From NCBI RefSeq assembly GCF_001655615.1, contig NZ_CP011567.1, positions 806,001-870,000 of the forward strand: a DNA stretch of 64,000 nt. The letters are read 5' to 3'. This document shows positions 5,222 through 36,301 of this stretch, piece after piece. The notes beneath the pieces are model-generated. The model saw only the letters and a list, made by a program, of their open reading frames with translations, ran no database searches and had not been told where the DNA came from. Position 1 is the stretch's first letter. Each line of letters begins with the position of its first letter. The stretch comes from Pseudomonas sp. GR 6-02. GTDB taxonomy: Bacteria > Pseudomonadota > Gammaproteobacteria > Pseudomonadales > Pseudomonadaceae. The translations under genes and the position numbers were made by a program.

Positions 5222-5484
5222 GCTCGACGGCGATATGTCAAATATAAGTACAGGTAAGTTCCTGCTCGGGTTTGCAAATAGGCAAAAACCAGCCAAGTGG
5301 CGCTTGCCTGGTGGATCAGTGCCAACAACCTGTGAGCGGATTGCTTACCTGTGCACACGTCCAGTATTGGCGCCGAAAGCTCAGCGGCTTACTGTGCGCG
5401 GCATCCGTGTCTGCCGCCCACCTTAACCCGCTCTCCTTAGCAAGGCATGATGCAAGAACTCATAACCGGAAGAACCCGACTGCT
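5222..5484. other. Upstream region of the DUF262 pair
   Basis: No gene supported. The frame of the next gene is open upstream to 5272, but that extension has no conserved residues. A promoter for 5485-8860 is expected here. Confidence 0.4.
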
Positions 5485-6894
5485 ATGACCAATTTGAGCA
5501 CGGAAGCGATTCACCTGCCGCAACCCACTGAACTATCCAGCAAGATCGTCAGTGTCTATGAACTGCTGATGGATTCTGCGCTGGATATTCCCCAGTACCA
5601 GCGCCCCTACAAGTGGACCGGGAAGAACATCAACCAACTGTTCTCCGATATCGCCATCCACAAGGACAAGTCCGCCTACCGCTTGGGCACTATCGTTTTT
5701 CACCAAGAGGGTGGGGCAAGGAACATCGTCGACGGCCAGCAGCGGACTGTCAGCCTGCTGCTGGCGGCCCGTGCGTTGATTCAGCGTAACAAAGAAAAAA
5801 AGCTCGAACGCATAGACCTGCAAGAGCGCCTGCTAAAACTTGAGCAAGCGATGGTGAATCCAAGCTTTAGCAGCGAGATCTCGCAGAAGAACATCCACAA
5901 CAATTACCTTGAGGTGGCCCGCATCGTTTCCCGCGCAGACTTCACCGAGGTGCATATCGACTTCTTCCTGAACAAGTGCCAGGTCGTGGCCGTGGCCTTG
6001 AACGATGTGTCGGAAGCCTTCCAATTCTTCGACTCGCAGAATGCGCGGGGCCGGGACCTAGAGCCCCATGATTTGCTCAAGGCTTATCATCTGCGTGAGT
6101 TCGGCCCGCATGATGAGCCATTGAAGGCGGCAACTGTAGCGCGTTGGGAGAACAGCGACTCCAAGGAGTTGGCCACACTGTTCTCCCAGTACCTGTACCG
6201 CATCCGCAACTGGTCGAAAGGGGTTTCGGCTCGTTACTTCAGCAAAGATGACAGCGACTTGTTCAAGGGCGTGAACATCGATACGGTGGCCAGCTATCCC
6301 TATGTGGAGCAACTGCGCATCGCCCACCATTTTGTCGATAACTACAACGGGCAGTACGAGCGCAAGATCGACTCGCGCGAGCTCGGTTTTCCCTTCCATC
6401 TGGACCAGCTCATCATTAATGGTCGGCGCTTTTTTGAGCTGATCAGCCACTACCAGAGCAAAGTGGCGCGGATCAGCGCCAAGTCCTGGAACGGGCATGA
6501 ATTGGTGGGTGCAGAGGGGCTCGATGGTTATGCGAAAACTATCATGGATACCCTCAATACTTACCCGGCAAGAACCCGAACCGGCGACTGTTATGTACGG
6601 GCGATGTTCGATTGCCTGTTGATCTATTACATCGACAAGTTTGGTCACGCGGATATTTCCCGCGCCATCGAAAAGGTTTTCGTCTGGGCCTATAGCCTGC
6701 GCCTGAAGATGCAGGTAGTGCAGCTGGCAAGCATGGATAACCACGTGCTGGAGAACAATCTGTTCAGGTTGATAAAGGACGCCACACGTCCTGCCGACTT
6801 TATCAACTGCAGCCTGGCGGTGATGAGCGGTACGAAGTCAACCAGGACCGGTGAGATCGAGGCTCTGTTCAAGGCGATGAAATATTATGAGTAA
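5485..6894 (+). CDS. DUF262-domain protein, GmrS-like subunit
   Basis: 469 residues from the ATG at 5485; an upstream open stretch to 5272 is not conserved-looking. The DUF262 (ParB-like nuclease fold) signature is clear: [12 protein letters not shown] near residue 34, GTIVFHQ, then [17 protein letters not shown] at about residue 82, and [20 protein letters not shown] at about residue 181. In GmrSD-type modification-dependent restriction this domain hydrolyses nucleotide and helps recognise modified DNA. There is no HNH motif, so the partner at 6887 must supply cleavage. The two genes overlap by 8 bp. A type IV-like role against phages with modified cytosine is inferred from the family. Confidence 0.85.
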
Positions 6895-8860
6895 TGAAAT
6901 TTGCCAGCTTTCCATCAAGGCGCTGCTGAGCGGTAGCGTTGAGTATGTTATCCCGATGTATCAGCGTAATTACGCCTGGGAGGAGGGTGAGATCACTCAG
7001 CTGATTCAGGACGTGATCGACTACCTGCCAATGACCTCGGATAAAGCGCGCAATTACTACATTGGCACTCTGGTGGTGTATGAGCGTCCGGATAGCAAAA
7101 ACCCGGTGTTTGAAACCATTGACGGCCAACAGCGGCTGACGACCCTGTCGTTGTTGACGTCGTATCTGAAAAACACCCGGTTGGTGGATCTCGCCTGGTA
7201 TTCGACTTTGAGCATTCACTTTGACAGCCGCGAACATTCGCGCGCGACCTTTGCGGCCATCTTCGAGGGGAAGTTCAACGACGATCCTGCCGAGGTATTG
7301 CTCGAGAGGCAGATCAATACTGGCATCCTCAATGGCTATCGGCTGATCCAGAAAGTCTTGCCTCAGAAGCTGAAGGAGAAGGGAATTTCGCCTCAGCAAT
7401 TCGCCGACTACTTGTTTGACTTCGTACAAATCATGAGGGTTAAGGTACCGGCTGATACGGACCTGAACCATTACTTCGAGATTATGAACAACCGCGGTGA
7501 GCAGCTGGAAAAGCACGAAGTGCTCAAGGCGCGGATGATGGAGAAGTTGCAGGGCTGCGAGCGGAGTCAGAATTGCTTGCACGCAGTTTGGGAAGCCTGT
7601 GCCAACATGGAGCGCTATGTGCAAATGGGCTTCACGCCTGGCCAGCGTGGCAGCATTTTTGGCGAAAAGAACTGGGGACGGTTTGAACTCGCTGACTTCG
7701 ATTCGCTTCGGGCTGCGTTGCACAGTACGCAAGAGGTGGCTGCCCAGCAGGACACTCGCTTGACCCTTGATCAGATCATTGCCAAGGCACCGGTCGCTGC
7801 GAAGCAGGATGAGCCAAGTGAGGACTCGCCAGAGCGTTTCAACACGATTATCAACTTCCCGAACTTCCTGTTGCATGTGCTGCGCGTCGATATCCAAGCG
7901 GACATCCCTCTGGATGACAAACGCCTGCTCGACACCTTTGAAGAGTACGTATTAAAACAACCCGACCCAGTGGCCGCGGTGAAGCGTTTTACCTTCAGCC
8001 TGTTGCGCTGCAAGTATCTGTTTGACCAGTATGTAATCAAGCGCGAGTTCATCAAGGGCGCTGATGGCTGGAGCCTCAAACGCTTCAAGTGGAATGAGGG
8101 CGGTGAGCGCAGCCGCGCTGGTCGAGGAAGTTATGTGAATACCTTCGGCGAAGAGGACGGCAATGAAGGCATCAACCGCCGAATTCTGATGCTGCTGTCG
8201 GCATTTCATGTCTCCACGCCAACGCTGGTCTACAAACACTGGCTGAATGCGGCGCTGCATCACCTGTTTCATGCTGACCAGATTGACGCTCAAGCTTATC
8301 TTCAGCACATGGAGTCGGTCGCCAAGGCGTTTGTATTTGACCGCTTTCTCGCTCCAGAGGCAGGCCTGGATTACTACGCGATCATTTATCAGAACAAGGG
8401 TGGGTGTCAGACACGCCGCGAAAGCATTACGGCGGAGAAATTTGAGTCCAGATTGACGTTTGGCAACATCGAAAACAACCTGGTGTTCAACTTTCTGGAC
8501 TACCTGCTTTGGCTTGAGCACGGCGCAAGCGAGCCGGTTAAATCTTATGAATTCACCTTCCGTAGTTCGGTAGAGCATTACTACCCGCAGCACCCATTAG
8601 ACGGACAAGTTCAGCTCGACGCTGGCACGCTGAATTCGTTCGGCAATCTCTGCCTGATCAGCCATGACAAGAACTCCCGCCTGAGTAATTTCATGCCCGC
8701 GGCGAAGAAAGAGTTTTATAAAAACAACACCATCGACAGTGTTAAGCAGTATCTGATGATGGAAGCAGAGCCTTGGGAAGCCGACGCTATATGCACACAT
8801 TCCAAACACATGAATAATGTGTTGCTCAAGAGCCTCGCCAGTAAACACGAAACCGAGTAA
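6887..8860 (+). CDS. DUF262 plus DUF1524 (HNH) protein, GmrSD-like nuclease subunit
   Basis: 657 residues. The N-terminal DUF262 domain shows [20 protein letters not shown] at about residue 23, [27 protein letters not shown] at about residue 80, and [20 protein letters not shown] at about residue 198. The C-terminal DUF1524 HNH-type domain has the HYYPQHP motif at about residue 564 and [20 protein letters not shown] at about residue 583, with the His and Asn/Asp residues expected for a metal-dependent nuclease. This is the layout of GmrSD/type IV restriction enzymes. Together with the upstream DUF262 protein it forms a two-gene unit with both motif sets intact, so it is probably functional. 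Confidence 0.88.
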
Positions 8861-9869: not shown

Positions 9870-11687
9870 TTAGATCGCCCGTTCGAGCAGCTGCGCCTCG
9901 GCGATTTGGCCATCTTGATAACGCAGCAATACCTGACGTTCACCTTGATCGAATAGCGATTGGTGCAGCTGGCGGGTGTCGAATGGGCCCTGCGCCAGCG
10001 TACCGGCAACGCTGTCCAATTGCATCGTGAAGTTTTGGCTTAGCGAGGCGTCGAGGCTGAAGACGCGTGAGCTGGTCAGCTCCATCTGTGAGCTGTACAC
10101 ACTGCGACTCTGGGCGGCGATAGCGTCGAGCTGCGCCAGGCTGTCAAGTACCTTGGCTGCGGCACTGCGGTGACGTTGCTGCGGCTCAGCCATATAGCGC
10201 AAGGCGCTGTTCACAACCTGCAACTGAGTGGCTTGCAGGTATCCACTCACCCAACCTTCCATCTTCGCCAGGCTGCCTTTCAGCGCCTGGCGGGCACTGT
10301 CTGCGCCGAACAGCTTGTCGGCCTCGACAGCCTGTGCGTCGTCCAGCTCTTCTTTCATTTTTCGGTCGAAGAATTGCCGCAGTGCCGTGATCTGGCTGTG
10401 CTGGCTTTCGAGGGTCTGCACGGCGTAGATGCTGATGCCGTCTTGCGCGTAGTGTTCGAGCAGGTCCTGGGTATAGTCAACCATTCCGGCGAGCGATTCC
10501 CAGCGGGCTTCGTCCAGTTCGCGCAGCACGGTGTCGAGCTGGCGTTTAATGGCGTTCAGCTTCTCGTTGATATCGTGCAAGTGCTTCTGACCTACGGCTG
10601 AGGACACCGCGTTCCAAACCGCGCCGCTGAGCAGCACGTTCTGCAGCTCCTCAGGCAATGACAGGCTGGCCTGCTCGCTGATCTTGCCGCCGGTACGGAC
10701 AAAGGCCCTGACGCTGCCATCGTTGTTGGCGTTTTTGGTCAATGTCTCGAAGGGCAGGCTACAAACCACATAGTTGCCCCTGGACATTTCTCCTAGCGCG
10801 GCAAGCCCCGGCACATTGGCCAGCAACGGGCTGAGCGCGCTGATCTGGTCGGTGGGTAGCGGACGATGTACGCCTGCAGGCGGTCGCTGCAGTGTGTTGA
10901 GTTTCAGCAGCGTTTCGCCCTGGCCGTTCTGCACGACCAGCTCTGAACTGCCCGGCGTGGGGGGGAGCACATTGGTCTGCACCGGTGGACGTGCCGCAGG
11001 CGCTTCGCGGCGCAGGCGGATCCAGCCCATCTGGGCCACAAATGGTACGGTTACCCGATAGGCTTCGGCGAGGCTGCTGTGCAGACCGATGCCAGCCGTG
11101 GCGGCGACGCCGATGGGGTTCAGGCGAAACCCCGTGGTTGCCACTGTGAACAACGCCGCGCTGCTTGCTGCCGACAGGCCGACCGCGGTGCCAGAACTCA
11201 CTGAGAGCGCGTCCTTGAGGTTGAACAGCCCGGCCAGCACCTTGGTGCTGGTGGCGCGCTCAAAACGATCGCTGGGCGCCAATTCGCGCCAGCCGGCACC
11301 GAACAGCGCCAAGGCGATCTGCCGTTCCTTGTCGGCCACGGAGCTGCTCGCTGCGTCGCTGCCATTGAGCTTTCGATAAACATCGTTGACGATTTCGGCA
11401 TAGGACACAGCGGACTTTTTCAGGAAACGACGCGCCAGATTCATCGCCGAGTGCCCGCCAAATTGCTGCAGTTCTTGTCCCAGCAGCTCGAGCTGCTGTT
11501 GGTCGTAGCCGGCAGGTCGGGAGCTGTGCTTGGCTTGTACCAGCCGCTTCTTGACGTCCGCGTCCAGGCCGGCGCGACCTCTCGAGAAGTCGGTGATGAT
11601 GTCCACCAACATGTCCACCTCATCGGGCGTGGCGCTGAGCAGGCTGGCGAAGAGTTCGTCGGCGCACTCGATTCCTGTAGTTGTCAT
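9870..11687 (-). CDS. YaaW-like (UPF0174) protein with a long helical C-terminal extension
   Basis: 605 residues from the ATG at 11687 (AGGTAAGGATAG before it). Residues about 45-215 resemble the E. coli YaaW/UPF0174 family: LLGQELQQFGGHSAMNLAR, then EIVNDVYRKL, a small-residue hydrophobic segment (ATAGIGLHSSLAEAYRVTVP) and QMGWIRLR. YaaW itself is about 237 residues, so the remaining 370 residues are an extension, mostly helical with coiled-coil character (EKLNAIKRQLDTVLRELDEA). The hydrophobic segment could contact membrane. Nearby are a GTPase pseudogene downstream and an OmpA-tail-like gene upstream. No function is established; a membrane-associated defence or stress role is speculation. 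Confidence 0.65.
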   Translation of the reverse strand: MTTTGIECADELFASLLSATPDEVDMLVDIITDFSRGRAGLDADVKKRLVQAKHSSRPAGYDQQQLELLGQELQQFGGHSAMNLARRFLKKSAVSYAEIVNDVYRKLNGSDAASSSVADKERQIALALFGAGWRELAPSDRFERATSTKVLAGLFNLKDALSVSSGTAVGLSAASSAALFTVATTGFRLNPIGVAATAGIGLHSSLAEAYRVTVPFVAQMGWIRLRREAPAARPPVQTNVLPPTPGSSELVVQNGQGETLLKLNTLQRPPAGVHRPLPTDQISALSPLLANVPGLAALGEMSRGNYVVCSLPFETLTKNANNDGSVRAFVRTGGKISEQASLSLPEELQNVLLSGAVWNAVSSAVGQKHLHDINEKLNAIKRQLDTVLRELDEARWESLAGMVDYTQDLLEHYAQDGISIYAVQTLESQHSQITALRQFFDRKMKEELDDAQAVEADKLFGADSARQALKGSLAKMEGWVSGYLQATQLQVVNSALRYMAEPQQRHRSAAAKVLDSLAQLDAIAAQSRSVYSSQMELTSSRVFSLDASLSQNFTMQLDSVAGTLAQGPFDTRQLHQSLFDQGERQVLLRYQDGQIAEAQLLERAI

Positions 11688-11761
11688 CTATCCTTACCTC
11701 TCGGTGTCTATATCAGGTTCAGGGGAGCAGCCGGCCAATACAGAATAAGGGCTGCATTGCG

Positions 11762-12025: not shown

Positions 12026-12322
12026 GTGTAGGGTTTTTCCTGGAGTTGGCGGAACCTGCGAGAGAGTTGGAATGACAAGTCTCATCCCAAGTGATGGCTT
12101 GATGATGTCAGCGAGGCGAGGTGGAAACAAGCAGGCAATGCACGCAGGGGGGGCGCAGCCACAGCCACGGCCACGGCCACGGCATCGAAGAGCGTGATGA
12201 ACGGCTGAGTTAGGTTGGGGCGGTGGCGTGGCATGGCGCAGAAATGGTTGATGGCTAATTTGTCTTCTAAGTGAGGCTTAAATTGAGTAGAATTCCGGCT
12301 ACTTTTCAGCTGGTAGGTATGG
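12026..12322. promoter_or_regulatory. Divergent regulatory region with a candidate WYL-regulator operator
   Basis: It separates the leftward YaaW block from the rightward six-gene operon. AGTAG and CTACT form an inverted repeat at 12286-12303, 19 bp before the ATG at 12323, where BrxR/CapW-type WYL repressors commonly bind. A tandem GCCACG tract lies at about 12160-12185. The short arms make the operator call tentative. Confidence 0.35.
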
Positions 12323-13252
12323 ATGAATCATTCGGTAGTCATTCCGTCTCGCGGTTTGGACGATCTAAGTCATGCCCAGCGTGAGCGTTTAGGCTTCATT
12401 GAACATCTATTGCTACTGAAAGGTGAGGCTTCGCGAGCGGAGCTGATGACGCGCTTTGGTATTGCCGCTGCACAGGCAACCAAGGATCTGGCGCATTATC
12501 ACAGTCTGGCTCCGGCTAATATTGAGTACGACAAGCGTCTTCGTCTGCATGTGCGCGGAAAAGGATTCAGTGCGCTATTCGATTATGACCCTCAACTTGT
12601 ATTGACGGCCCTTAGTCAGTGCTACAGCAAAGGGCTGCCTGGTAAAGCCGAGAGGGAATGGCCCTGTGAAACGCCTCATATCCTCAATGCGCCTTCATTG
12701 CAGGTGATTACTGTGCTTTGCGAGGCTATTTACAAGCATCTGCCTGTGCGCATGACTTATGTTTCGCTCAGCAGTGGTGAGCAGGAGAGAGTGCTGGTAC
12801 CACATAGCCTGGTGGGCACTGGCCTGCGCTGGCATGCGCGGGGGTTTGATCGCCGCCATCTGCAGTTTCGAGACTTCGTTCTAACTCGTATCCTCCGGGT
12901 AGAGTTAGACGATAGTTTGGTCGGGTTCGACGAGCAGGTTTCCCAGGATAAACAGTGGAATCGCATCGTCGACCTCGAACTGCGTCCCCACCCATCTATC
13001 CGTTACAAACAGGCCATCGAGTTGGATTACCAGATGCAGGGGGGGCTGCTGCGTAAAGAATGTCGCGCTGCTGTGGTCGGTTACTTGTTGCGCCGCTGGA
13101 ATGTCGATTGCAGTCCTAACCACAGTCTTCCGGGGCCGGAGTATCAGCTTTGCTTAGCTAATCCTTTATCCCTGTATGGCGTGGAAAACCTGGCCATTGC
13201 CCCAGGCTACCAACTCCCCGGTAATCACTCCATACAGCAGGATGCCCACTAA
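12323..13252 (+). CDS. BrxR/CapW-like WYL-domain transcriptional regulator
   Basis: 309 residues. The N-terminal winged helix ([20 protein letters not shown] then [16 protein letters not shown]) is followed by a WYL domain with the family signature [19 protein letters not shown] at about residues 156-174 and a C-terminal WCX-like region. This is the architecture of BrxR and CapW, repressors that control BREX and CBASS operons and are thought to sense a nucleic-acid or nucleotide ligand. The stop overlaps the next start (TAATG at 13250-13254). Position at the head of the operon suggests autogenous repression. The ATG at 12323 is the only in-frame start fitting the domain. Confidence 0.85.
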
Positions 13253-16200
13253 TGGTCAAACTGGAAGATATCAAGAAAAACGCCCAAATTCGTGGCCTGC
13301 ATGGCGACGAGGTTGTGAAGATCGTCAGCGTCGATAAGGTCGGCGACTCGGCGGTCAGCGTTGTCTACCAGAAGGGGGCAGGTGGTTATGGTGACCAGAT
13401 GCTGTTCCGTTCCGACGAGGCCCGTCTTGAACTTGCACAGGCTGGCAAGCCTTGGGCCTTTGACTCATCAGGCGCGGATTTCAAGTTGGCCTTGGAAGCT
13501 TGGCGTATCCAGTTGGCCTATCTGTTTGACCCGATGATGGCGGTGCATACCTCGAACGTCGACCCGCTGCCGCATCAGATTTCCGCTGTTTACGAATCCA
13601 TGCTGCCACGTCAGCCGCTGCGCTTTGTACTGGCTGATGATCCAGGGGCGGGTAAAACGATCATGGCTGGTCTGCTGATCCGAGAACTTCTCATGCGTGC
13701 CGATGCTCGACGCGTATTGGTCGTTTCACCCGGCTCACTTACCGAGCAGTGGCAGGACGAACTGCTTGAGAAGTTCGGTGTCAAGTTCGAGGTGTTCAGC
13801 CGTGAGAAGCAGGAGCAGTGTGCTTCCGGTAACTACTTTGAAGAGCAGAACTTGCTGATTGCCCGGCTCGACCAGTTATCGCGTAATGAGGACTATCAGC
13901 AAAAACTCAAGAGTACTGACTGGGATCTGATCATTGTCGATGAGGCACACAAACTCTCGGCTAATTACTTCGGTAACAAGGTCAACAAGACTAAGCGCTT
14001 CCAGCTAGGTGAGCTGCTCGGCTCGATCACTCGTCACTTTTTACTGATGACTGCCACTCCGCACAATGGCAAGGAAGAAGACTTTCAGATTTGGTTGTCT
14101 CTGCTTGATGGCGACCGCTTCTATGGCAAGTTTCGCGAGGGCGCACACAAGGTCGATGTCTCCGACCTGATGCGTCGCATGGTTAAGGAAGAGCTGCTCA
14201 AGTTCGATGGCACTAAGCTGTTTCCCGAGCGCCGTGCCTACACAGCCAATTACCAGCTCTCTGATCTTGAAGCTGAGCTCTATCATGATGTGACCGAGTA
14301 CGTTCGCAACCAGATGAATCTGGCTGAGCGCCTTGATGCCCAGCGAAAAAGCAACGTCGGCTTCGCTCTTACCCAGTTGCAGCGCCGACTGGCCTCCAGT
14401 CCGGAAGCCATTTACCAGTCTTTGCGCAACCGACGCAAACGCTTGGAAAACCGCATAGAGGAAGAGAAGATCCTCCTGCGCGGTAGCAACATAGCCAGCA
14501 CGCTGGGTGAGTATCTGGTCAAGAAACGCATTGATGTGCCGGACAACATTGATGATCTAGATGAAGAACTCAGCGCCGACGAGTACGAGCAATACGCCGA
14601 GCAACTGGTCGATCAGGCCAGTGCCGCTGAAACCATCGTCGAGATGGAGACAGAGGTCTGTATTCTTCAGGGTCTGGAAAACCAGGCGCAGCGACTGGTG
14701 GCGTCAGGCAGCGACAAAAAATGGGAAGAGCTGTCCTGCCTCCTGCAAGATACCCCAGAGATGTTCACCCACGGGCATCGTCGTAAGCTGATCATCTTCA
14801 CCGAGCACAGAGCCACCTTAAATTACCTGGTGGCTCGCATTGGTGACATGCTCGGTACGCCAGACGCCATCGTTACCATTCATGGTGGTACCAACCGTGA
14901 TGAGCGGCGCAAGATTCAGGAAGAGTTTCGCCACAACCCCAGCGTACAGGTGCTGATTGCCACTGATGCAGCGGGAGAGGGCGTCAACCTGCAAAACGCC
15001 AACCTGATGGTCAATTATGACCTTCCATGGAATCCCAACCGTCTGGAGCAGCGCTTCGGCCGCATTCACCGTATCGGCCAAGATCAGGTCTGCCATCTGT
15101 GGAATATCGTCGCCAACGAAACCCGCGAAGGTGAGGTGTTCCAGAAACTGTTCGACAAGCTGGAGATCGAGAAGAAGGCTCTCGGTGGTAAGGTGTTCGA
15201 CATTCTTGGTGAAGCCTTCGATAACATCTCGCTCAAAGATCTGCTGGTTGAAGCCATCCGTTATGGCGATGCCCCTGAAACCCGCGCCAAGATGACACAA
15301 GTGATCGAAGGCGCGCTGGATACTGAGCACCTTAAGGAAATTCTCCGGCGCAACGCCCTGGTCGAGCAGCACATGAGCCTCGACCAGCTCTACGCAGTCA
15401 AAGAGGAAATGGAAAAGGCCGAGGCGCGTAAGCTACAGCCATATTTCATTCGCGCCTTTTTCAATGAGGCCTTCGCCAGCGTTGGTGGCGAGCTGCGTGC
15501 TCGTGAACCGGCGCGCTTCGAGATTCGTCACGTCCCGGCCGCCCTGCGCGAGCGTGACCGCGTGATAGGCGAAAGCCGCACCCCGGTGCTGCGTCAGTAC
15601 GAGCGCATCTGCTTTGAAAAACAGCATGTACGGCTGCAAGGAAAGCAGATGGCAGATTTGATTCATCCAGGTCATCCACTCATGCAGGCCCTGACCGACC
15701 TCATCCTCTCTGCTCATCGCAGCAAGCTCAAACAGGGAGCGGTACTGGTTGACCCCAATGACGACGGCATAACGCCGAAAGTACTGTTCATGCTCGACCA
15801 CTGTGTGCGCGAAAGTGCCAGCCAGGCCAGCGCAGAGCCGAAGGTGGTATCGCGTCGCCTACAATTCGTCGAGATCGACCCGCAGGGCAACAGCATCAAT
15901 GCAGGCTGGGCACCGCATCTGGATTTGCTGCCGATCCAGTCTGTCGAGCTGTCACTGGTTCAAGACGTACTCAATGCTCCCTGGATCGAGCAAAATCTGG
16001 AGAACCTAGCCCTGCAGCATGCATCTCAACATCTGGTGCCTGAGCACTACGGCGAAGTGAAGACCCGCGTGCAGCGCCAAAGCGAAAAGGTGCTGGCCGC
16101 TGTGCATGAGCGCTTGGTCAAGGAAATCAACTACTGGTCGGAGCGCTACATAAAACTCAGCGACGATGTGGCAGCAGGCAAGCAGCCGCGTATGCAGCCG

Positions 16201-16785
16201 GAAAATGCCCGACGCCGCTACGAAGAACTCACCGCTCGACTGGAGCAGCGCACACGTGAGTTGCAAACCATGCAGCAGGTCAGTTCATCCACTCCAGTGG
16301 TGATGGGGGGCGCATTGGTGATTCCTGCGGGTCTGTTGGCTCAGCGCCGTGGTGACAGCACCTTCTGCGCTGATGCTGCTGCTCGCTCGCGTATCGAATG
16401 GGCTGCTATGCATGCAGTCATCGCTGCCGAGCAAGCACTGGGCCACACCATCAAGGACGTATCCGCCGAGAAGTGCGGCTGGGATGTCACAGCTCGCCCA
16501 CCTGTGTCAGCCGACGGCAGCATTCGTGACGACCGCCACATTGAGGTTAAAGGCCGAGTGAAAGGCTCGACCACCGTCACCGTTACTAAGAATGAAATCT
16601 TCTCCAGCTTCAACCAGGGCGAGAAGTTCATTCTTGCCATAGTGCTGGTGGATGGTGATGAGGTGGATGGCCCGCACTACATCAAGCATCCATTCAAGAC
16701 AGAGCCTGAATTCGGCGTGGCTAGCGTGAACTATGACTTGCAAGAGCTGCTGGCTCGTGCAGTCAAACCGGGGGAAAGCCTGTGA
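13252..16785 (+). CDS. SNF2-like helicase with a C-terminal DUF3883 domain (DrmD-like)
   Basis: 1177 residues. Helicase motifs in order: Walker A DDPGAGKT near residue 130, DEAH near 229, [10 protein letters not shown] near 263, the second RecA domain from [13 protein letters not shown] near 515, [12 protein letters not shown] and [13 protein letters not shown] near 600. The C-terminus (about 1040-1150) is a DUF3883 domain with GWDV followed by HIEVKGR, which looks like the D...ExK core of restriction-endonuclease-fold proteins. The overall plan matches DISARM class 1 DrmD and related phage-defence helicases that move along double-stranded DNA. The start overlaps the WYL stop, and the stop overlaps the next start (GTGA). 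Nuclease activity of the tail is inference. Confidence 0.85.
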
Positions 16786-18158
16786 AGCTCGACAAGCTGC
16801 GTCTGAAGAATTACCGCGGTTTCGAACAGTTCGAGATCGAATTTCACAAGAATCTGACAGTGCTGATTGCACCTAATGGCGGTGGTAAAACAACAATTCT
16901 GGATGCGGCAAGGGTAGCGCTCTGGCCCTACGTCAAAGGCTTCGATTTAGGAAGTCAGACTGGAAAATCAGCCAGCATACAAACTGATGATGTGCGCATG
17001 GCATTGATGGCTGAAGATAATATGGAGCCGCAAACACCAAGTAGTATAGAGGCCTGGGGCGATTGGTCTAAGACCGAGTGCAAAAAGCACTGGATACAGC
17101 AACGACTCCGTATGAAAAAGGGCACTAATACTACAGGTGATGCTGCAGTAAAGAAGATGACGGAATATGGCCGATCGTTGGAAAAACTGGTGCGTGCTGA
17201 TCAACCCGTGACCCTGCCGCTTGTGACCTACTTGGGTACCTCACGGCTGTGGTTTGAAGGCCGCTTTTCATCGATCGCTGCCGAAACCACGCTCGATAAG
17301 AGTGAATACTCCCGCACCTCCGGCTATCTCAACTGCATGTCTTACACCTCCAGTTTCAAGGCATTTACGGCCTGGTATGGCTGGGTGTACCGCAGCTACC
17401 GCGAGTTACAACTGATTGCACTGGAGAAAAAAACGGAACTGTCTGAAACCGGACGTCGGTTCGAGCAGACCATTCACGTCATCAAAACCGCCATCAACAC
17501 TTTGGTAACGGCGGCAACCGGCTGGCACGACCTTGAATATAGCGCCAGCCACCAACAACAACTGGTTATGTATCACCCCCAGCATGGCGTTTTGCCGGTT
17601 GAAATACTCAGCGATGGCTTACGAAATGCAATCGCCATGGTGGCCGACCTCGCTTTCCGTGCCTACAAGCTGAACCCGCATTTGGGCGCGAATGCTCCAT
17701 TGGAGACACCTGGTGTTGCTTTGATTGACGAAGTGGACATGTTCCTGCATCCACAATGGCAGCAAACGATTGTTGGATCATTACAGGCCGCCTTTCCCGA
17801 ACTGCAATTCATCGTCACCACCCACAGCCCGCAGGTGCTTAGTACTGTCCGGCGCGAAAATATCCGCGTCATAGGCCCTGATGTGGATGGCCAGTTAATT
17901 GCTGCTCTGCCGCTGGGTATGACCTATGGCGAGCCTAGCGGCGATGTGCTGCAGAGTGTGATGCAGGTTGATCCCCAGCCACCTGTTGAGGAAAAAGTTG
18001 GCCTGCAACGCGTGACTGAAATGGTCGATCAGGGCCTGTACGACGACCCCGACGCTATTCAGCTCATGCAGGTATTGGTCGAAGCCTTGGGCGAACAGCA
18101 CCCACAGCTACAGCGGTTGCAACGCAGTATCCAGCGTCAGAAGGCTTTGAAAGGATGA
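16782..18158 (+). CDS. RecF/SMC-type AAA ATPase, PtuA-like
   Basis: 458 residues from the GTG at 16782, which overlaps the helicase stop by 4 bp. N-terminal [20 protein letters not shown] is the classic RecF/ABC-ATPase opening. Walker A is APNGGGKTT at about residues 30-38. The signature-like [20 protein letters not shown] is near 270, Walker [16 protein letters not shown] is near 314, and the H-loop VTTHSPQV is near 347. All motifs are intact. This is the ATPase half of Septu (PtuA) and of retron-associated PtuA proteins, where it assembles with an HNH nuclease. The HNH partner follows at 18155 with an ATGA overlap. Confidence 0.85.
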
Positions 18159-18880
18159 GAGCCATCAGTAAACTGGGTGATGGTGGTTTTCACCTGAAAA
18201 AGTCGCATGCCAACCCGCCGCAAACGCATGGAGCTGCCACCAGCCGCTGGAAGAGCTTTGGTCATAAGCCAGAGGTCATGGAGCTCCTACTGTCTGAACA
18301 GTATCGGTTGTGTTGCTATAGCGAGCTGCGTTCCGACCAGCAAGGCTTGAGTTATCACATTGAGCATGTGGAGAACAAAGGCCAGCAACCACACCGGACC
18401 TTTGACTACACCAATCTCGCTGCTAGTGCTCTGGCTAGCGACAGTGACCTCCCGGCGTTGAAGGCTCTAGGGGCGGAAGTATTTGGAGGTCATGCGCCCG
18501 GCAAGCGGCAAAGCGTTGATATGCAGCGCTTCGTCTCATGCCATCAAGCGGATTGCTCGCGTTTTTTCGCCTACCTGTCCGATGGTCGAGTCGTTCCGGC
18601 ACACGGTTTGGAAACAACAGACCAGGAGCGTGCGCAGTACACTATCGACCTGCTCAACTTGAATAGCTCTTATCTCGTGCCCCTTCGTCGTAAATGGTGG
18701 GCTGAGTTGGAAGTGCTCTTCGACGAACATATTACCAGCGACATGAGCCTACATTGCCTGGCTGGTGTCGATCTGTTGCCCCGAAACCAAACGCTGAACC
18801 CTTTTTTCAGCCTGACGCGCCAGTTCTTTGGCCGTATTGCCGAAGACGTTATCCGCCAGGAAGCCCCGGAACTGTTATGA
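18155..18880 (+). CDS. HNH nuclease of the TIGR02646/PtuB type
   Basis: 241 residues. The nuclease core reads [18 protein letters not shown] near residue 45, then [10 protein letters not shown] near residue 68 and [11 protein letters not shown] near residue 81, matching the C..C...IEH.....N pattern of TIGR02646 proteins. One zinc-binding pair seems replaced: CCYSEL instead of the usual CxYC(E). A later [12 protein letters not shown] near residue 129 could provide metal ligands. In Septu and in retron PtuAB systems this protein cuts DNA or tRNA when its ATPase partner is triggered. The ATG overlaps the ATPase stop and the stop overlaps the methyltransferase start (ATGA both times). Confidence 0.8.
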
Positions 18881-21783
18881 CTGCCATCAAAGCCCCGAAA
18901 AAGCTCATCGAAGTGGCCTTGCCGCTTGACGCAATCAACGTCGCGGCAGCTCGTGAGAAGTCGATTCGTCATGGTCATCCCAGCACCCTGCACTTGTGGT
19001 GGGCGCGGCGGCCTTTGGCAGCTGCGCGGGCGGTAATTTTTGCCCAAATGGTTAACGACCCAGGCTACCAGCAGGGAGGTGGCTTCAAGTACGGAGTGAA
19101 TAAAGAGAAGGCTACAGCTGAGCGCGAGCGTCTGTTCAAGATTATCGAAGACCTGGTGCTGTGGGAAAATACCAACAACGAAGAGGTGCTGGAGCGGGCT
19201 CGGGCGGAGATCTGGAAAAGCTGGCGTGAGACCTGCGAACTCAACAGGAGCCATCCGCAGGCCGCCGAGTTATTCAACCCGGAAAAATTACCTGGCTTCC
19301 ATGATCCGTTCGCTGGTGGTGGCGCGCTGCCGCTGGAGGCTCAGCGTTTGGGGCTCGAGAGCTATGCCTCCGACCTTAACCCGGTGGCAGTGACCATCAA
19401 CAAGGCGATGATTGAGATCCCCCCCAAGTTTGCTGATCGTGCGCCTGTTGGACCAGAAGTCGCAGCAGACAAGGGCAGCAAGAAGAAGGCGACCCGTGAT
19501 GCCTTTGAGGACTGGTCGGGCTCCAGGGGGCTGGCCGAAGATGTACGCCGCTATGGTGCCTGGATGCACGAACAGGCGCAGCAGCGTATCGGCGATCTGT
19601 ATCCACCGATTGAGGTGACCTCAGAGATGGTTGTCGAGCGCCCCGAGCTTGCTCAATATCAAGGGGAAACGCTCACTGTGATCGCCTGGCTATGGGCGCG
19701 AACCGTTCGCAGCCCCAACCCCGCATTCAGTCACGCCGAAGTGCCGCTGGTTTCGACTTTTGTATTGTCCAGTAAGGTAGGTAAAGAGGTTCATGTTGAG
19801 CCAGTGGTTGAGGGGGATAGCTACCGCTTTGTCGTCAAAGTAGGTATGCCGCCCGAAAATGCTAAAAGCGGGACTAAGGCGGAAGGGCGTGGTGCGAATT
19901 TTCTTTGTTTACTGTCTGGCACCCCTGTCAGCGGTGATTACATCAAGCTAGAAGGTAAAGCCGGGCGTATGGGGGCTCGCTTGATGGCAATTGTTGCGGA
20001 GGGTAGGCGTGGTCGTGTGTATCTAACTCCGACATCCGAGCAAGAGGCGACAGCTTTGGCTACCCAAGCAGATTGGAAGCCAGTTGGTGATATCCCAACC
20101 CGTATGACAGGAGGAAATTGCACTCCCTATGGTCTTGTAACATGGGGCGACCTTTTTACTGCTCGCCAACTAGTGGCGCTGACCACCTTCTCCGATCTGG
20201 TTCAGGAAGCCATCATCCGTGCGCGAGAGGATGCGCTGGTTGCTGGTATGGTTGACGATGGTCTAGGGCTTGATCAGGGAGGTTGCGGAGCCACGGCATA
20301 TGCGCAAGCGGTGGGAGTTTATTTAGCGTTTGCAGTAGATAAAGCAACGGACCGAAATACGACCCTGTGCGCGTGGGAGTCGAAAATGGATCGCATGCGC
20401 AACACTTTTGGTCGCCAGGCTCTACCAATGGTTTGGGATTATGTAGAAACAAACCCGATTGGTGGGGCAGGGGGGGATATTTATGGAACAGTTTATTCGC
20501 TATGGGAAGCTCTGGATCGACTTAACCATGGTTGCGCTGGATTTAGTGTGCAGGCAGATGCTCAAACACAGAAGGTGAGCGCTAATAAGTTGATCTCTAC
20601 TGATCCGCCGTATTACGACAATATCGGCTATGCGGATCTGTCAGACTTCTTCTATGTCTGGCTGCGCCGCTCGTTACGGTCAATATATCCGAGTCTGTAC
20701 GCCACTCTGGCAGTGCCTAAGGCCGAGGAATTGGTGGCTACGCCTTATCGTCATGGTAGCAAGGACAAGGCCGAAGCCTTCTTCCTCGATGGCATGACCG
20801 CCGCCATGCACAACCTAGTCGAGCAGGCTCATCCAGCGTTTCCGGTGACCATCTACTACGCTTTCAAGCAGGCGGAAACCAAGGGTGAGGCCGGAACCTC
20901 CAGCACTGGCTGGGAAACATTCCTCGCCGCAGTGCTGAAGGCCGGTTTTGCCTTGAGTGGGACTTGGCCGATGCGCACGGAGCTGGGCAGCCGGATGATT
21001 GGCTCCGGCACCAACGCCTTGGCCTCCAGCATCGTGTTGGTCTGCCGCAAACGCGCAGCAGATGCCCTGACTATTTCTCGCCGCGAGTTTATTCGCGAAC
21101 TAAATAGCACCTTGCCGGAAGCTCTGCTGGATATGACCCGTGGCGGCATCAACTCGCCGGTGGCTCCGGTGGATTTGTCCCAAGCCATTATTGGCCCGGG
21201 TATGGAGGTGTTCAGCAAATACAGCGCAGTTTTGGAAGCTGACGGTTCGACCATGAGCGTGCGCAGCGCGCTGCAACTGATCAACCGCTTTATCGGCGAA
21301 GATGACTTCGATCACGACACCCAGTTCTGCTTGGCCTGGTTCGAGCAGCATGGTTGGGCTGAAGGCAAGTATGGCGATGCCGATGTATTGGCCCGTGCCA
21401 AGGGCACCAGCGTTGGAGGCCTGACGGAAGCCGGTGTGGCGGAAAGCTATGGCGGAAATCTACGCCTGCTCAAATGGGCCGAGATGCCTCGAGACTGGTC
21501 GCCGGAAAACGACAACCGTGTACCTGTGTGGGAGGTTTTGCATCAATTGATCCGTGCCCTCAGTCAGGATGGCGAAACAGCTGCTGGTCAGCTGCTGGCC
21601 CGTATGCCCGATAAGATAGCCGCAGTTAACGCATTGATGTACCGGCTCTACACACTTTGCGAACGCCAGGGCTGGGCCGAAGAGGCTCGCGCTTACAATG
21701 AGCTGCAAGGCGCCTGGAGTGGTATCGAGCAGGCTAGTCAGGAAGTTGGTCATATCGGAAGCCAGAGCACCTTGGAGCTCTGA
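18877..21783 (+). CDS. DUF1156-domain DNA methyltransferase
   Basis: 968 residues from the ATG at 18877, which overlaps the HNH stop (the frame is open further upstream, but [20 protein letters not shown] is the conserved DUF1156 opening, followed by [19 protein letters not shown]). AdoMet-binding motif I is [20 protein letters not shown] near residue 140. Catalytic motif IV is [15 protein letters not shown] near residue 574, typical of amino-group (N6-adenine or N4-cytosine) methylases. Large DUF1156 enzymes occur in anti-phage clusters with DUF499 proteins and helicases and probably mark host DNA. The middle third (about 19750-20600) looks more AT-rich than its surroundings, as if recombined. 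The recognition sequence cannot be read. Confidence 0.88.
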
Positions 21784-21903
21784 TCTCATGCTCCGACCTG
21801 CACGTTATGGAGCATCAATTACACAGCGCGCCATTAGGTGGGTCTGTGATCATATGAGCAGCGGAGTGCTGTCTCATGCCTCTGTTGTAACTGGAGATAA
21901 GGA

Positions 21904-24699
21904 ATGAGCCTGAAACCCTGGCGACTGATCGCCGAGCCCCATGAAGATGTGCGCACAGGCACCTTCGTGCAGGCGGAGTTCGCCGCTGACATCACGCGCG
22001 TGCACACTGGCACGGCTGCCGCCGAGTATCAGGATCCGCGTCTTTTCTTCCAGCGTACTTTCATCACCGAGGGAATGCGCCTTCTGCTGGACTCAGTGGT
22101 CAAGCGCCTTACTGGCAATGGCGGTGATCCTGTGATTCAGTTGCAAACAGCATTCGGTGGCGGCAAAACGCACACCATGCTGGCGGTCTATCACCTGGCC
22201 CAGGGCAAGGTGCCATCCAGCGAGATGGCAGGCATTGGCGAAATTCTCAATAAGGCCAAAGTAACCGAGCTGGTGCCGGCTCGTATCGCCGTTCTGGATG
22301 GCATCAATGCGTCCCCAAACCAGCCTGTTGCCCGTGGATCCAGCAGCATTCATACACTGTGGGGTGAGATGGCCTGGCAGTTGGGTGGAGATAGTGGCTA
22401 TGCGCTGGTGGCTGAGGCCGACCATTCCGGTACGTCGCCAGGCAAGGAGGTTCTGGAGAAGCTGCTCAAACAGTACGCGCCATGTGTGATATTGGTTGAC
22501 GAATTGGTGGCCTATATTCGCCAGTTCGAGGAAGGAGTATCTCTCACAGGTGGCACTTTCGACTCCAATCTAAGCTTTGTGCAGGCACTTACCGAAGCGC
22601 TCAAGGCCGTGCCTACGGCTGTCATGCTGGCGTCCTTGCCGGAGTCGGAGAAGGAAGCTGGTAGTCAGCGTGGCGTGCGTGCTCTGGAGTCACTGTCACA
22701 TTACTTCGGCCGTGTTCAGGCGCTGTGGAAACCGGTGGCTACCGAGGAGGCCTTCGAGATCGTGCGGCGCCGGTTGTTCAGTCGTATCAATGATCAGTTG
22801 GCGGCAGAGCAGGTGTGCCGCCAGTTTGCTGATTTCTACACTGCCCACAGCGCCGACTTTCCTGCCGAAACCCAGCAGAGTCATTATTACGAGCGTTTGA
22901 AGCAGGCCTATCCGATTCACCCCGAGGTGTTTGATCGCCTGTATGACGATTGGTCGAGCCTGGAAAATTTCCAACGCACTCGTGGCGTGCTCAAAATGAT
23001 GGCCAAGATCATCTACAGCCTGTGGCAAGACGGTAACAACGATCCTCTGATCATGGCTGGCAGCCTGCCATTCGGTGATGCCGATACGCGAAACGAATTC
23101 ACCTACTACCTGCCGGCTGGCTGGGATCCGGTGGTGGATCGGGATATCGATGGCCCGCGTGCCGAAACAGCCGAGATCGAAAACAAAGACACACGCCTTG
23201 GTGCTGTGCAGGCCTGTCGGCGTACGGCGCGTACCATCTTTCTGGGCAGTGCACCGACTACGGCAAACCAGATGGTACGTGGCATCGAGCTGGAACGGGT
23301 TCTGCTAGGAAGTGCGCAGCCGGAACAGCAAATCGGGTTGTACAAGGATGCTTTGCGTCGTCTCACAGATAAGCTGCATTACTTGAACACAGGCAACAAT
23401 CACTTCTGGTTCGATACTCGACCGAATCTGCGCCGGGAGATGGAAGAGCGTAAGAAACGCTTCAAAGACCGCGAGGATGTATTCCCGGCTATCCGTCAAC
23501 GTTTGAGTAACATTGGAGGCTGTTTTGGTGGTGTGCATGTGTTCACCAACAGCGCGGATGTGCCGGATGATTGGGCGTTACGCTTAGTGATACTGACTCC
23601 CGATGCCGCCTACAGCAAGAGCGGGCAGAGCAAGGCTATCGCCAAAGCGGCAGAGATTCTCAAGCACCGTGGCGAGCAGCCGCGGCAAAAGCAGAATCGT
23701 CTGATTTTCCTAGCGGCTGATGCCGATAATGTTAGTCGTTTGAAAGATCACGTGCGCTCGGTGCTAGCCTGGGAGTCCATCGTTAGTGACTACAAGGACA
23801 ATCGCATCACCCTTGACAACCTGATGGGCAAGAATGCCGCCGCCAGTCTGGAGCAGGCGCGGGACACCCTGAATCGCATGCTGCGGGAAACCTGGAAGTG
23901 GCTGTTGGCGCCGGTACAACATGCTGGCAATCTGACGGAGATCGTCTGGGAGCATTATCCGATCAACCCTGGGGCGGCGAATCTCTCCCAGGAGATCGAG
24001 AGGGTGCTCAAGGACAACGAATTGCTGATTACTGAGTGGGCACCGATTCACCTGGCCAACATTCTCAAACGCTGGTTCTGGAAGGACGGCGCGGCTGAAG
24101 TAGGGGCGCTGGATGTGTGGCAGAAAACCTGCTGCTACTTGTATCTGCCGCGCCTGCGTGATGATCAAGTGTTTATCCGTACTCTGAGTGTGGGTGTGGA
24201 AAGCCGTGACTTTTTTGCTGTGGCGCAAGGCAAGGATAAAATGGATCAAGGTGACGAGCGCTACCTTGGATTTGTATTTGGAAAGTCGACGTCGATTTTC
24301 CTCAATGATAGCTATCTGCTGATCGAGCCGGGTGCTGCTAAGGCTTATGAGGCGAGTCTTATTAGTTCTGAGCCAGGCCCAAATCCTGATCCAGGCCGAG
24401 GCCCAAATCCTGATCCAGGCCCTGAGCTCGAGCCCGACGCGCAGCCCGGCCCAGAGCCCACTCGTCCCTTGCCCAGCCAGTTCTATGCCAGCGTAGAGCT
24501 GGATCCAGTCAAGGCCAAAATGCAGTTCGCCACTCTAGTCGATGAGGTTATTCAGCAGTTCACGGTCAAGCATGGCGTGAACGTGACCATATCTATCGAC
24601 ATTCAAGCCAACAGTGGCAGTGGTTTTGATGATTCATTGCAGCGCTCAGTGAAGGAAAACTGCAATGTGCTCAAGGTGAAAACCTACGAGTTTGAGTAG
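21904..24699 (+). CDS. DUF499-domain ATPase (phage-defence associated)
   Basis: 931 residues, preceded by GGAGATAAGG five bases before the ATG. Walker A is [18 protein letters not shown] near residue 80 and Walker B is [14 protein letters not shown] near residue 196, with HSADF and RTRGVLKMM further on, typical of DUF499 proteins, which resemble the large ATPases of BREX and related systems. Near residues 825-855 lies a Pro/Asp/Gly-rich linker with repeated PNPDPG, then a small C-terminal domain of about 80 residues. It follows the methyltransferase after a 120-bp gap without a gene. DUF499 and DUF1156 proteins are usual neighbours, so it probably acts with the methylase. Confidence 0.88.
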
Positions 24700-32014: not shown

Positions 32015-33283
32015 TTGCAAATAAGAAAATTCCATCTCCCTACAGAGCGGGGCGATCAAGTTGTTCTCCCTTACTCAAGCTCAAAGAAAAACAGAGTAAC
32101 TATTTTGCTCGGTGCAAATGGCACGAGAAAAAGCACGATATTGCGGGGATTGCTTGACGATGCCTTAAGAGAGCATGAGTTTTTAAATGGCATGAAATAC
32201 CACTCTATCGGCACAGAGTTTTCCAGCAATCCTTCTCTTATTATCGCGCTGTCTGCAATCCCTAATGATAGATTTCCGACAAAAAAACGACAGGGCAATA
32301 CTCGGCCTGACGGCCGGTATTCAGCTGAAATCTACGAGTATATAGGCCCGCGTCACAATCAAAATTTAGTCAGCAGAAATCAGAGCGTGCAAGCGTTGGT
32401 CTCAGCAGCATTAAGCCGAGATGGCGTATCGGATAATCTAAAAAACTTCATTTCAAAAATATCTGCAAAAACGGGAATCTCTACGCGCTTCGAGCTATTT
32501 ATAGAGTCGCAGCCTGGCTCATCGGGTGACGACAGTCGTTTTACCAAACCAGCCACGCTAATGTTGGATATAGAGAAGCGCAAGGCGATAATGTCGCAGT
32601 TCAAGGCCAGCCGTGGCGAGCCCGTAATTTTTGATTTATTGTCCGACGATATTTGTCTTACTTATCATCGAGAATTAGTAAGCGAAGCATTGCGCTATAA
32701 TCTGATAGCTTTGAGGCGTCCTTTATTCAACGACCGCACCCCTGAAGACTTCAGCGCTGGCCAATGGGGATTGTTTTCTACATTTGTTAGCTTAGCTTTA
32801 CGTGCGAAAGATAACATGCTTGTACTCATCGACGAACCGGAAAGCGCCTTGCATCCATCTTGGCAACGTGAGTATATGGGAGACCTGTCTGCTGCGCTGG
32901 TGGAATCTAGAGATTGCCATATTGTTGTCGCAACTCACTCCCCTCTCATTGTTAGCAGTATGAGTCCGACTCATACCGACCTTATTATATTACGTAGAGA
33001 TGAGTTGAGCGGTGATATTGTGGCAGTGCCGTCTGAGATTCCAGCGGGATGGCAGTCGAATGATATCTTAGAGGATAAGTTTGATCTCAAGAGCACACGG
33101 TCTCCTGAATTAGTAGGTGCATTAGACTTACTTCTAAAATCAGTATCCGAAGGCGTGGAAAAAAACAAAAGCAAAATAAAGTCTCTGCTTGTGAAGGTCG
33201 AAGATTTCACCTCTGGCCTACCGGAGGAAGACCCTGTTCTATCGCTACTAATTTCCATAAAGAAAATTATTGGTGTGTCATGA
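32015..33283 (+). CDS. PtuA-like AAA ATPase (Septu-like) with an altered Walker A
   Basis: 422 residues from a TTG at 32015 (AAGG nine bases upstream; no better ATG before the conserved start MQIRKFHLPTERGDQV). Walker A reads GANGTRKST at residues 33-41, with Arg where the P-loop normally has Gly before the Lys. The rest of the ABC/RecF machinery is intact: FSAGQWGLFSTFVSLALRAK near 247, Walker B LVLIDEPESALHPSWQ near 269 and VVATHSPLI near 306. The HNH gene follows with an ATGA overlap, the layout of Septu ptuA-ptuB. It should sense phage infection and control the nuclease. AT-rich, unlike the core. Confidence 0.8.
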   Translation: MQIRKFHLPTERGDQVVLPYSSSKKNRVTILLGANGTRKSTILRGLLDDALREHEFLNGMKYHSIGTEFSSNPSLIIALSAIPNDRFPTKKRQGNTRPDGRYSAEIYEYIGPRHNQNLVSRNQSVQALVSAALSRDGVSDNLKNFISKISAKTGISTRFELFIESQPGSSGDDSRFTKPATLMLDIEKRKAIMSQFKASRGEPVIFDLLSDDICLTYHRELVSEALRYNLIALRRPLFNDRTPEDFSAGQWGLFSTFVSLALRAKDNMLVLIDEPESALHPSWQREYMGDLSAALVESRDCHIVVATHSPLIVSSMSPTHTDLIILRRDELSGDIVAVPSEIPAGWQSNDILEDKFDLKSTRSPELVGALDLLLKSVSEGVEKNKSKIKSLLVKVEDFTSGLPEEDPVLSLLISIKKIIGVS

Positions 33284-36115: not shown

Positions 36116-36136
36116 GGGAGCTACCTTGGGCACCGT

Positions 36137-36191
36137 TTTGGTATCCTAAAAATAGCACCGGGTAGCTCTGGATACCACCTGGGATACCAAA
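36137..36191. promoter_or_regulatory. Inverted GGTATCC/GGATACC sites upstream of the integrase
   Basis: TTTGGTATCC at 36137-36146 and GGATACCAAA at 36182-36191 are perfect inverted copies; a further GGATACC lies at 36170. Spaced between the integrase start and the attachment site, they are likely integrase arm sites or an operator for the int promoter. Confidence 0.5.
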
Positions 36192-36264
36192 CTGTCTGGA
36201 ACTCCAAATACCTCGTTGGCACCCAGAAGCGCTTAAACCCTTGATTTTGTTGGATTGTAGGCAC

Positions 36265-36290
36265 AAAAAAAGACGTCCGTGGACGTCTTT
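36265..36290 (-). terminator. Terminator now serving ssrA
   Basis: On the minus strand AAAGACGTCC and GGACGTCTTT pair around AC or a short loop and are followed by a T-run. It begins 12 bases after the tmRNA 3' end. If the island entered at the ssrA end, this terminator came with the island and replaced the one at 4680-4710. Confidence 0.8.
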
Positions 36291-36301
36291 AGATGTAAAA
36301 G

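Follow-up and report, generated by a model that had tools for sequence, protein, structure and literature searches.

An Hma operon with a Septu gene pair between hmaA and hmaB in Pseudomonas sp. GR 6-02

The stretch of DNA analysed here comprises 64,000 nucleotides of Pseudomonas sp. GR 6-02 (contig NZ_CP011567.1, positions 806,001 to 870,000) and is referred to below as the window. Within 12.4 kb of the window (12323-24699) lie six intact open reading frames (ORFs), all on the plus strand, and, as judged from the protein families they encode, this locus is an Hma (helicase, methylase, ATPase) operon with a Septu pair between hmaA and hmaB. The order is a gene for a WYL regulator of the BrxR/CapW type (12323-13252), hmaA (13252-16785), ptuA (16782-18158), ptuB (18155-18880), hmaB (18877-21783) and hmaC (21904-24699). 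The WYL gene and hmaA are joined by the sequence TAATG at 13250, the next three junctions are 4-nt overlaps at 16782, 18155 and 18877, and 120 bp precede hmaC. The five genes from hmaA to hmaC gave near-full-length PADLOC matches of 2237, 580, 437, 1782 and 1572 bits, respectively, which is far above chance. An earlier interpretation of the same DNA (hereafter, the sequence-only reading) had described six genes with these coordinates and junctions, and all of its ORFs and overlaps are as it read them.

Homologues of HmaA, HmaB and HmaC stand together on one strand, as is required of an Hma system. HmaA (model positions 1-1174 of 1176) has the Pfam domains SNF2, Helicase_C and NOV_C. The last of these, also known as DUF3883, covers residues 1049-1138 (16396-16665, plus strand; PF13020, 66 bits) and represents the putative nuclease end of the protein, with a PD-(D/E)XK-like motif, GWDV...IEVK. 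The protein thus combines an SNF2 helicase with a C-terminal nuclease-type motif, as in Hma. HmaB (positions 2-966 of 967) is a DUF1156 DNA methyltransferase (Pfam, 109 bits) with the motifs DPFAGGG and DPPY, both of which are invariant across 18 aligned HmaB proteins; a DPPY motif favours N6 adenine methylation. For this enzyme, Payne 2021 predicts 5-methylcytosine (m5C) and PMC12839542 predicts N6 adenine. HmaC (positions 1-940 of 941) is a DUF499 AAA+ ATPase (Pfam, 100 bits). Its 931 residues place it in the size class without an N-terminal HEPN fusion, the relatives annotated as HEPN-fused having 1084-1143 residues. With HEPN presence judged in this way from length, an HmaC ORF of at least 850 residues occurs in 12 of the loci that carry PtuA, and each has the short, HEPN-less size (931-976 residues). 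These 12 loci all belong to one HmaB clade, which leaves a single usable contrast for the idea that PtuAB may substitute for the HEPN RNase. A BREX system would contain BrxC/PglY and PglZ, and neither HmaB nor HmaC, for both of which the list of PADLOC matches is complete, matches any BrxC or PglZ model at an E-value of 0.01.

The two genes within the slot encode a PtuA ATPase adjoining a PtuB HNH nuclease with intact catalytic motifs, as in Septu type I. PtuA, an ABC/OLD-type ATPase (PADLOC PtuA1, positions 1-438 of 443; Pfam AAA_15/AAA_21), retains the Walker A residue K36 and the Walker B residues D316 and E317. It matches the solved PtuA 8EE4 with 519 bits over residues 1-458, whereas the next PtuA entry scores 136 bits and the retron-effector entries score at most 127 bits. 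PtuB (PADLOC PtuB1, positions 1-240 of 240) has no Pfam match, and it matches TIGR02646, 'retron system putative HNH endonuclease', with 91 bits against a cut-off of 52. Its best structural match is the solved PtuB 8EE7 (267 bits vs 29 bits for the next entry and at most 29 for the retron entries). The residues H68, H71 and N87 are intact, and H68, E70, H71 and N87 are invariant in 25 aligned PtuB proteins. The gene before ptuA is hmaA and no reverse transcriptase gene (ptuC) lies beside ptuAB, as it would in Septu type II or a retron of type I-A. The pair differs from Septu type I, as represented by 8EE4/8EE7, in sitting inside another operon. We take 8EE4 and 8EE7 to be the Septu proteins of E. 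coli ATCC 25922; if they are, DNA is the likelier target of PtuAB in the window. The targets of published PtuAB systems differ, being nicked DNA or tRNA-Tyr: the Septu of E. coli ATCC 25922 is reported to act on nicked DNA (as cited in PMC11555353), the PtuAB of retron-Eco7 is a toxin that is held by the RT-msDNA (RT, reverse transcriptase) and depletes tRNA-Tyr (PMC11555353), and Septu EcB88 cleaves tRNA-Tyr (PMC13096335). The spacing of 16 residues between H71 and N87 equals that between the essential H75 and N91 of EcB88 (PMC13096335). A second Septu-like pair was observed about 14 kb downstream (32015-34038, plus strand), in a stretch of low G+C content (0.44-0.47). Its PtuA-like (422 residues) and PtuB-like (252 residues) genes overlap by 4 nt and match PADLOC models with 153 and 112 bits; the former is 28% identical to the embedded PtuA over 144 aligned columns, and the latter has no BLASTP match to the embedded PtuB.

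The sequence-only reading had described a defence operon of the modification type, distinct from DISARM, in which a PtuAB module stands under a BrxR-type regulator, and in this it was right. It had also stated that it knew no named system with exactly this gene set, and had itself given an existing model for the full set as a refuting finding. The claim of novelty fails, because existing Hma and Septu type I models name the full set (5/5 defence genes) and because the association of the two systems is in print. Payne 2021 named Hma and reported frequent co-occurrence with Septu, and PMC12255303 (2025) gives 'Septu in Hma systems' as an example of embedding, citing Payne 2021 and a 2024 preprint. 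PMC12839542 describes the same core as a Type-1 DUF499-centred BREX-related system, with DUF499 (HmaC) as a relative of BrxC, a helicase that ends in a nuclease in 79% of type-1 taxa, and HNH plus OLD-ABC dyads among the auxiliary effectors. The operon shares with Hma, as defined by Payne 2021 and PADLOC, the three core genes in the order A-B-C and the helicase with its C-terminal nuclease motif. It differs by the two Septu genes between A and B and by an HmaC of HEPN-less size, and both of these variations have already been described.

The product of the first gene, which matches Pfam WYL with 43.9 bits, aligns with structure 7QFZ over residues 10-297 of 309 (313 bits), and CapW/BrxR-type structures score 80-119 bits. 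It has the winged helix, the WYL domain and the C-terminal domain of BrxR/CapW regulators as well as their position upstream of a defence operon, and it is predicted to bind DNA. Among the Hma loci with room for such a gene (36, the window included), a WYL homologue lies directly upstream of hmaA in 9, namely in 5 of 16 with PtuA and in 4 of 20 without it. Since these frequencies are similar, the regulator is not tied to PtuAB, and the idea that it is PtuAB's own is unsupported. The WYL gene probably couples Hma and Septu to one transcript. Between positions 11700 and 25200, matches to consensus promoters (6 vs 7.7 in shuffled sequences) and terminators (14 vs 13.1) were about as frequent as expected by chance, and we claim neither. 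A search for a WYL operator returned just a weak overlapping palindrome at 12300-12319, for which we claim no operator function.

To see what occupies the interval between hmaA and hmaB in other genomes, HmaB was sought in samples of the family (298 genomes), the class (369) and the phylum (398), in which 6, 16 and 17 genomes, respectively, had a match, the own genome included. This sample was drawn regardless of PtuAB. It yielded 36 loci from other genomes, 23 with a readable slot and 13 without; two class-level genomes with fragment matches only (G738 and G747) were left out, and one of the 23 loci (L122) is a distant relative. The slot was empty (less than 250 bp) in 8 of the 23 loci, held PtuA in 4 (L015, L016, L093 and L112) and held other cargo in 11. 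Hma loci thus do not carry PtuAB as a constant component. In three of the four PtuA-filled slots PtuB was found by tblastn, and L015 has a PtuB of another PADLOC family. A Pfam scan of 10 slot proteins identified an NYN domain in L019 and L106 (L107 being near-identical by eye) and, in L096, a 1416-residue sacsin-like protein together with an AAA_21-type ATPase. Matches below the cut-off were to DUF3644 (L114) and to SprT-like, the latter in L091, which comes from a viral contig and does not belong to the 23, and four of the 10 proteins, one of them the L015 PtuB, had no Pfam match. The content of the slot differs among close relatives. The HmaB proteins of the window, L015 and L016 group together with support, and the HmaA proteins of the two relatives are 84-88% identical to that of the window. 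PtuA is 67% identical to the window's in L015 and 42% in L016, and the PtuB of L016 is only 23% identical. In L019, HmaA is 83% identical, the slot holds the NYN gene, and hmaB has an internal stop and is partly matched. DNA identity between the window and L015, L016 and L019 drops at the gene ends. This measure is coarse (the L015 coordinates are one codon off the hmaA stop), and we make no claim about exchange breakpoints from it. A second slot, between hmaB and hmaC, was seen to hold 1-4 genes in L015, L016, L030, L033, L036, L047, L061, L065, L066, L076, L112 and others; no PtuA match was found in this gap in the 21 PtuA-bearing loci.

Septu pairs were surveyed from the other side by scanning a collection of species genomes (84,980 species) with two conserved peptide patterns from relatives of the window PtuB, a procedure that under-samples distant PtuB. 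Up to 10 kb were fetched on each side, and HmaA and HmaB were called at summed tblastn scores of 300 and 150 bits. Of the 56 PtuB loci found, 14 are Hma-linked. ptuAB comes next after hmaA in all 14 of these, and hmaB follows in 13, the contig of the remaining one (L080) ending inside ptuB. A further 41 of the 56 loci, some of them on short contigs, lack any part of HmaA or HmaB next to PtuAB within the sequence retrieved. The other locus, L032, has on a 4.6-kb contig just a C-terminal piece of HmaA (1432-1845; residues 1034-1173, 46% identity) directly before ptuA, and no HmaB match above chance on that contig; the piece is either an Hma remnant or a lone nuclease domain. L051 and L072 have distant helicase-like matches below threshold on the opposite strand. 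A Rhizobium rhizogenes plasmid (L126), one of 8 records opened among the 61 from plasmids that match HmaB, carries genes annotated in the order HmaA-PtuA-PtuB-HmaB-HmaC, and one (L087) of the 6 HmaB loci in a viral collection has PtuA in the slot.

The scan of flanking genes covered 20 of the 42 loci without a called Hma link, and also L027. In 8 such loci an upstream gene (nearest to third-nearest) was scanned against Pfam; 7 were housekeeping genes (efflux parts, GatB, MutL, AIR synthase-like etc.) and 1 had no match. An aldehyde dehydrogenase gene lies downstream in L064. L041 and L045 are retrons of type I-A with RT_I-A according to PADLOC. Several pairs were seen within or next to other defence operons: HsdM-HsdS-PtuA-PtuB-HsdR in a type I restriction-modification (R-M) operon, where the pair overlaps its neighbour by 4 nt on either side (L067:5420-13101), PglX-PtuA-PtuB-BrxC-PglZ in a BREX operon (L077:4911-17842) and JetA-JetB-PtuA-PtuB-JetC in a Wadjet operon, where a 141-residue ORF without a PADLOC match precedes ptuA (L081:5716-14098). 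In L071, PtuAB lies 57 nt before JetA, and in L027 BrxC is encoded three genes downstream of PtuAB. The remaining scanned flanks had no PADLOC match, apart from a weak one in L079. The presence of Septu pairs of the same kind in systems as unlike as type I R-M, BREX, Wadjet and retrons suggests that PtuAB is a portable cargo.

Changes between embedded and non-embedded PtuA were counted on phylogenetic trees, a count that does not separate gains from losses. A careful tree of 57 PtuA rows, 20 of them embedded (ten divergent rows, 2 embedded and 8 not, were left out), required 16 changes (bootstrap 15-16; at least 12 forced). The shuffled mean was 16.9, and 186 of 500 shuffles were as low. On the same tree, the division into Pseudomonadaceae and others, which served as a positive control, required 3 changes against a shuffled mean of 12.7, with 0 of 500 shuffles as low. 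The embedded label is thus distributed as if by chance, and host family is clustered. L032 was labelled as not embedded; relabelling it as embedded or dropping it still gave 16 changes (shuffled means 17.3 and 16.7). A quick tree of 67 rows, 22 of them embedded, in which the ten divergent rows were included, agreed with this and gave 18 changes, at least 13 of them forced by well-supported branches, with a shuffled mean of 18.8. A single embedded clade on the PtuA tree was rejected (p-AU 5e-7), and a dedicated Hma-type PtuAB clade, which the PADLOC scores had led us to expect, is likewise rejected by the trees. The PtuA of the window is 72% identical to that of a stand-alone Pseudomonas Septu and 38-67% identical to the 20 other embedded PtuA. 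Pairwise distances were most strongly correlated for HmaB and HmaC (rho 0.83), followed by PtuA and PtuB (0.62), HmaA and HmaC (0.52) and HmaA and HmaB (0.41; each p 0.03 or less), and those of HmaB and PtuA were uncorrelated (rho 0.09, p 0.25). PtuAB thus moves mostly as a pair that is loosely tied to the surrounding Hma, and the hmaA-hmaB slot seems to have gained or lost Septu on many occasions.

We consider it likely that the locus is a WYL-controlled Hma restriction operon with an autonomous, exchangeable Septu cassette between hmaA and hmaB. By analogy with relatives of these proteins, HmaB would methylate the host DNA, and HmaC together with the HmaA helicase-nuclease would act on unmodified invading DNA, as has been proposed for this core in PMC12839542. 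The WYL protein would act as a repressor of the operon transcript. PtuA and PtuB would be translated from the same message and form their own sensor-effector complex; upon infection, PtuA may license the PtuB HNH nuclease to cut phage DNA or host tRNA. PtuAB would then represent a second layer of defence, one that is probably growth-arresting.

Several observations weigh against an autonomous cassette. The PtuB tree (62 rows, 18 embedded, four short PtuB omitted) is slightly clustered, with 13 changes, at least 7 of them forced, a shuffled mean of 15.9 and 20 of 500 shuffles as low. The presence of PtuA is clustered on the HmaB tree (7 changes vs 14.7 in shuffles), partly because many loci were found via PtuB. 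Distances of HmaA and PtuB (rho 0.50, p 0.0025), HmaB and PtuB (0.39, p 0.027) and HmaA and PtuA (0.30, p 0.0035) are correlated, which is what partial co-inheritance or a common host taxonomy would produce, and the link of HmaA to HmaB is hardly closer than its link to PtuB. The cassette keeps its place after hmaA in each of the 14 Hma-linked PtuB loci and never occurs elsewhere within the fetched DNA, and PtuA lies between hmaA and hmaB in 21 of 21 PtuA-bearing Hma loci. With start codons taken as the nearest in-frame candidates, hmaA and ptuA overlap by 4 nt in 14 of these 21, and of the 19 loci in which PtuB is matched, 14 have such an overlap between ptuB and hmaB; gaps of 640, 165 and 115 nt occur in L068, L054 and L047, and most others overlap. 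Such precise placement exceeds what casual neighbourhood requires.

That the pair is repeatedly found at exactly this point between the helicase and methylase genes, in most cases with overlaps, speaks for an alternative in which the slot is a functional position. The model for it is PrrC, an ABC-ATPase tRNase that the linked type Ic R-M enzyme EcoprrI keeps silent and that the T4 anti-restriction peptide Stp activates (PMC2610378). In the same manner, the Hma complex or Hma-methylated DNA would silence PtuAB, and phage anti-restriction would free it to stop growth by cutting tRNA or DNA. The related pairs inside other multi-gene systems (L067, where the pair lies between HsdS and HsdR, and L077) point the same way, as do the restraint of the retron toxin by RT-msDNA with its depletion of tRNA-Tyr (PMC11555353) and the cleavage of tRNA-Tyr by EcB88 (PMC13096335). 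PrrC in EcoprrI is a possible analogue only, as an ABC-ATPase nuclease linked to a restriction operon; the two are not homologous as systems, and the silencing of PtuAB by Hma is hypothetical. Against such a guard, embedded and stand-alone PtuA are interleaved on the trees, so that no lasting fit between PtuA and Hma is visible, and near relatives of PtuAB lie beside housekeeping genes. To our knowledge, Wadjet has no modification step, and the Septu pairs inside the Wadjet operon of L081 and just upstream of JetA in L071 therefore indicate that embedding is not special to modification systems. A guard confined to modification is weakened by L081. The window pair is also far closer to 8EE4/8EE7 than to the retron entries, and the ATCC 25922 Septu is reported to act on nicked DNA (cited in PMC11555353). 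On balance, we regard a PrrC-like guard as unlikely, although it is the main rival of the autonomous cassette. Slightly more doubtful still is a wider version of it, in which PtuAB is a general 'fuse' for multi-gene immunity that has repeatedly been inserted in Hma, type I R-M, BREX and even Wadjet operons, stays silent as long as its host system works and is freed when a phage or plasmid disables that system, like PrrC in EcoprrI. If this were true, exchange would amount to one fuse replacing another in a fixed socket.

The sequence-only reading had favoured one integrated six-gene system, with PtuAB as the obligate effector of a methylation-sensing Hma core. The single operon with its overlaps, and the same gene order on the Rhizobium plasmid and in the 14 of 56 PtuB loci (as far as the contig of L080 reaches), agree with this idea. 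However, the slot is empty or otherwise filled in 19 of 23 loci, PtuAB without Hma is common (41 of 56), the PtuA of the window is nearest to that of a stand-alone Septu, and in 20 of the 21 loci with PtuA the nuclease motif of HmaA is retained, HmaA being just a fragment in the one exception (L043). The last finding also led us to reject PtuAB as a replacement for a lost HmaA nuclease. The view of PtuAB as the effector of a single machine is therefore unsupported, and we consider an integrated system improbable. More remote again is a methylase-helicase system, of the DISARM class or another, with DrmD as its helicase. DISARM class 1 shares an SNF2 helicase and a DNA methylase with the window, and DrmD is the second-best kind of match to the helicase among the matches listed (PADLOC, 388 bits). 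The DrmD-like character noted in the sequence-only reading thus holds at a second remove only, since HmaA scores higher by a wide margin (2237 bits) and the NCBIfam DrmD match of 375 bits stays under the cut-off of 610. Of the DISARM core (drmA, drmB, drmC), neither drmB nor drmC is among the matches that PADLOC lists (at most 25 per protein) for 14 proteins of the window, and the DrmA match (235 bits) is just a cross-match to the helicase core of HmaA.

The surroundings of the operon contain further candidate defence genes. Two overlapping GmrSD-like genes lie at 5272-8860 (plus strand), the first with GmrSD_N and DUF7834 domains; both match the HEC-06, Orf5 and SspE models of PADLOC, and their two-protein layout resembles TgvAB (PMC11411939). 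HEC stands for 'Hma embedded candidates', which are listed in PMC10855318. HEC and the GmrSD-type TgvAB in type I R-M (PMC11411939) are, like the Septu pair of the window, a second system between the core genes of a modification-type system, and the window cargo differs from them in being Septu instead of GmrSD-like or other HEC genes. According to PMC11411939, HEC-05 and HEC-06 'function independently'; in its context the phrase may refer to their action as single proteins, and we do not use it as evidence of independence from Hma. A 605-residue protein encoded at 9870-11687 (minus strand) matches JukA models with its N-terminal third (88 bits) and has no Pfam match. Past hmaC, there is a shorter integrase gene (PF12835; 25562-26551, minus strand), and a tyrosine integrase gene (PF00589, 102 bits) adjoins the tmRNA gene at 36302-36699, the two together spanning 34859-36699 (minus strand). 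The left part of the window looks like a defence island inserted at the tmRNA gene.

The locus is a further example of the published Septu-in-Hma arrangement. What the present analysis adds is a measured contrast between the Hma genes, which share a history (best seen for HmaB and HmaC), and the content of the slot, which is exchanged. The slot behaves as a socket that may hold Septu from several lineages, an NYN or sacsin-like protein or another ATPase pair, or may be vacant. Whether embedding represents common regulation with linked inheritance, or instead a guard, thereby becomes a question that can be tested on close relatives, among which those with a similar Hma and a different cargo, or none, may serve as natural controls.

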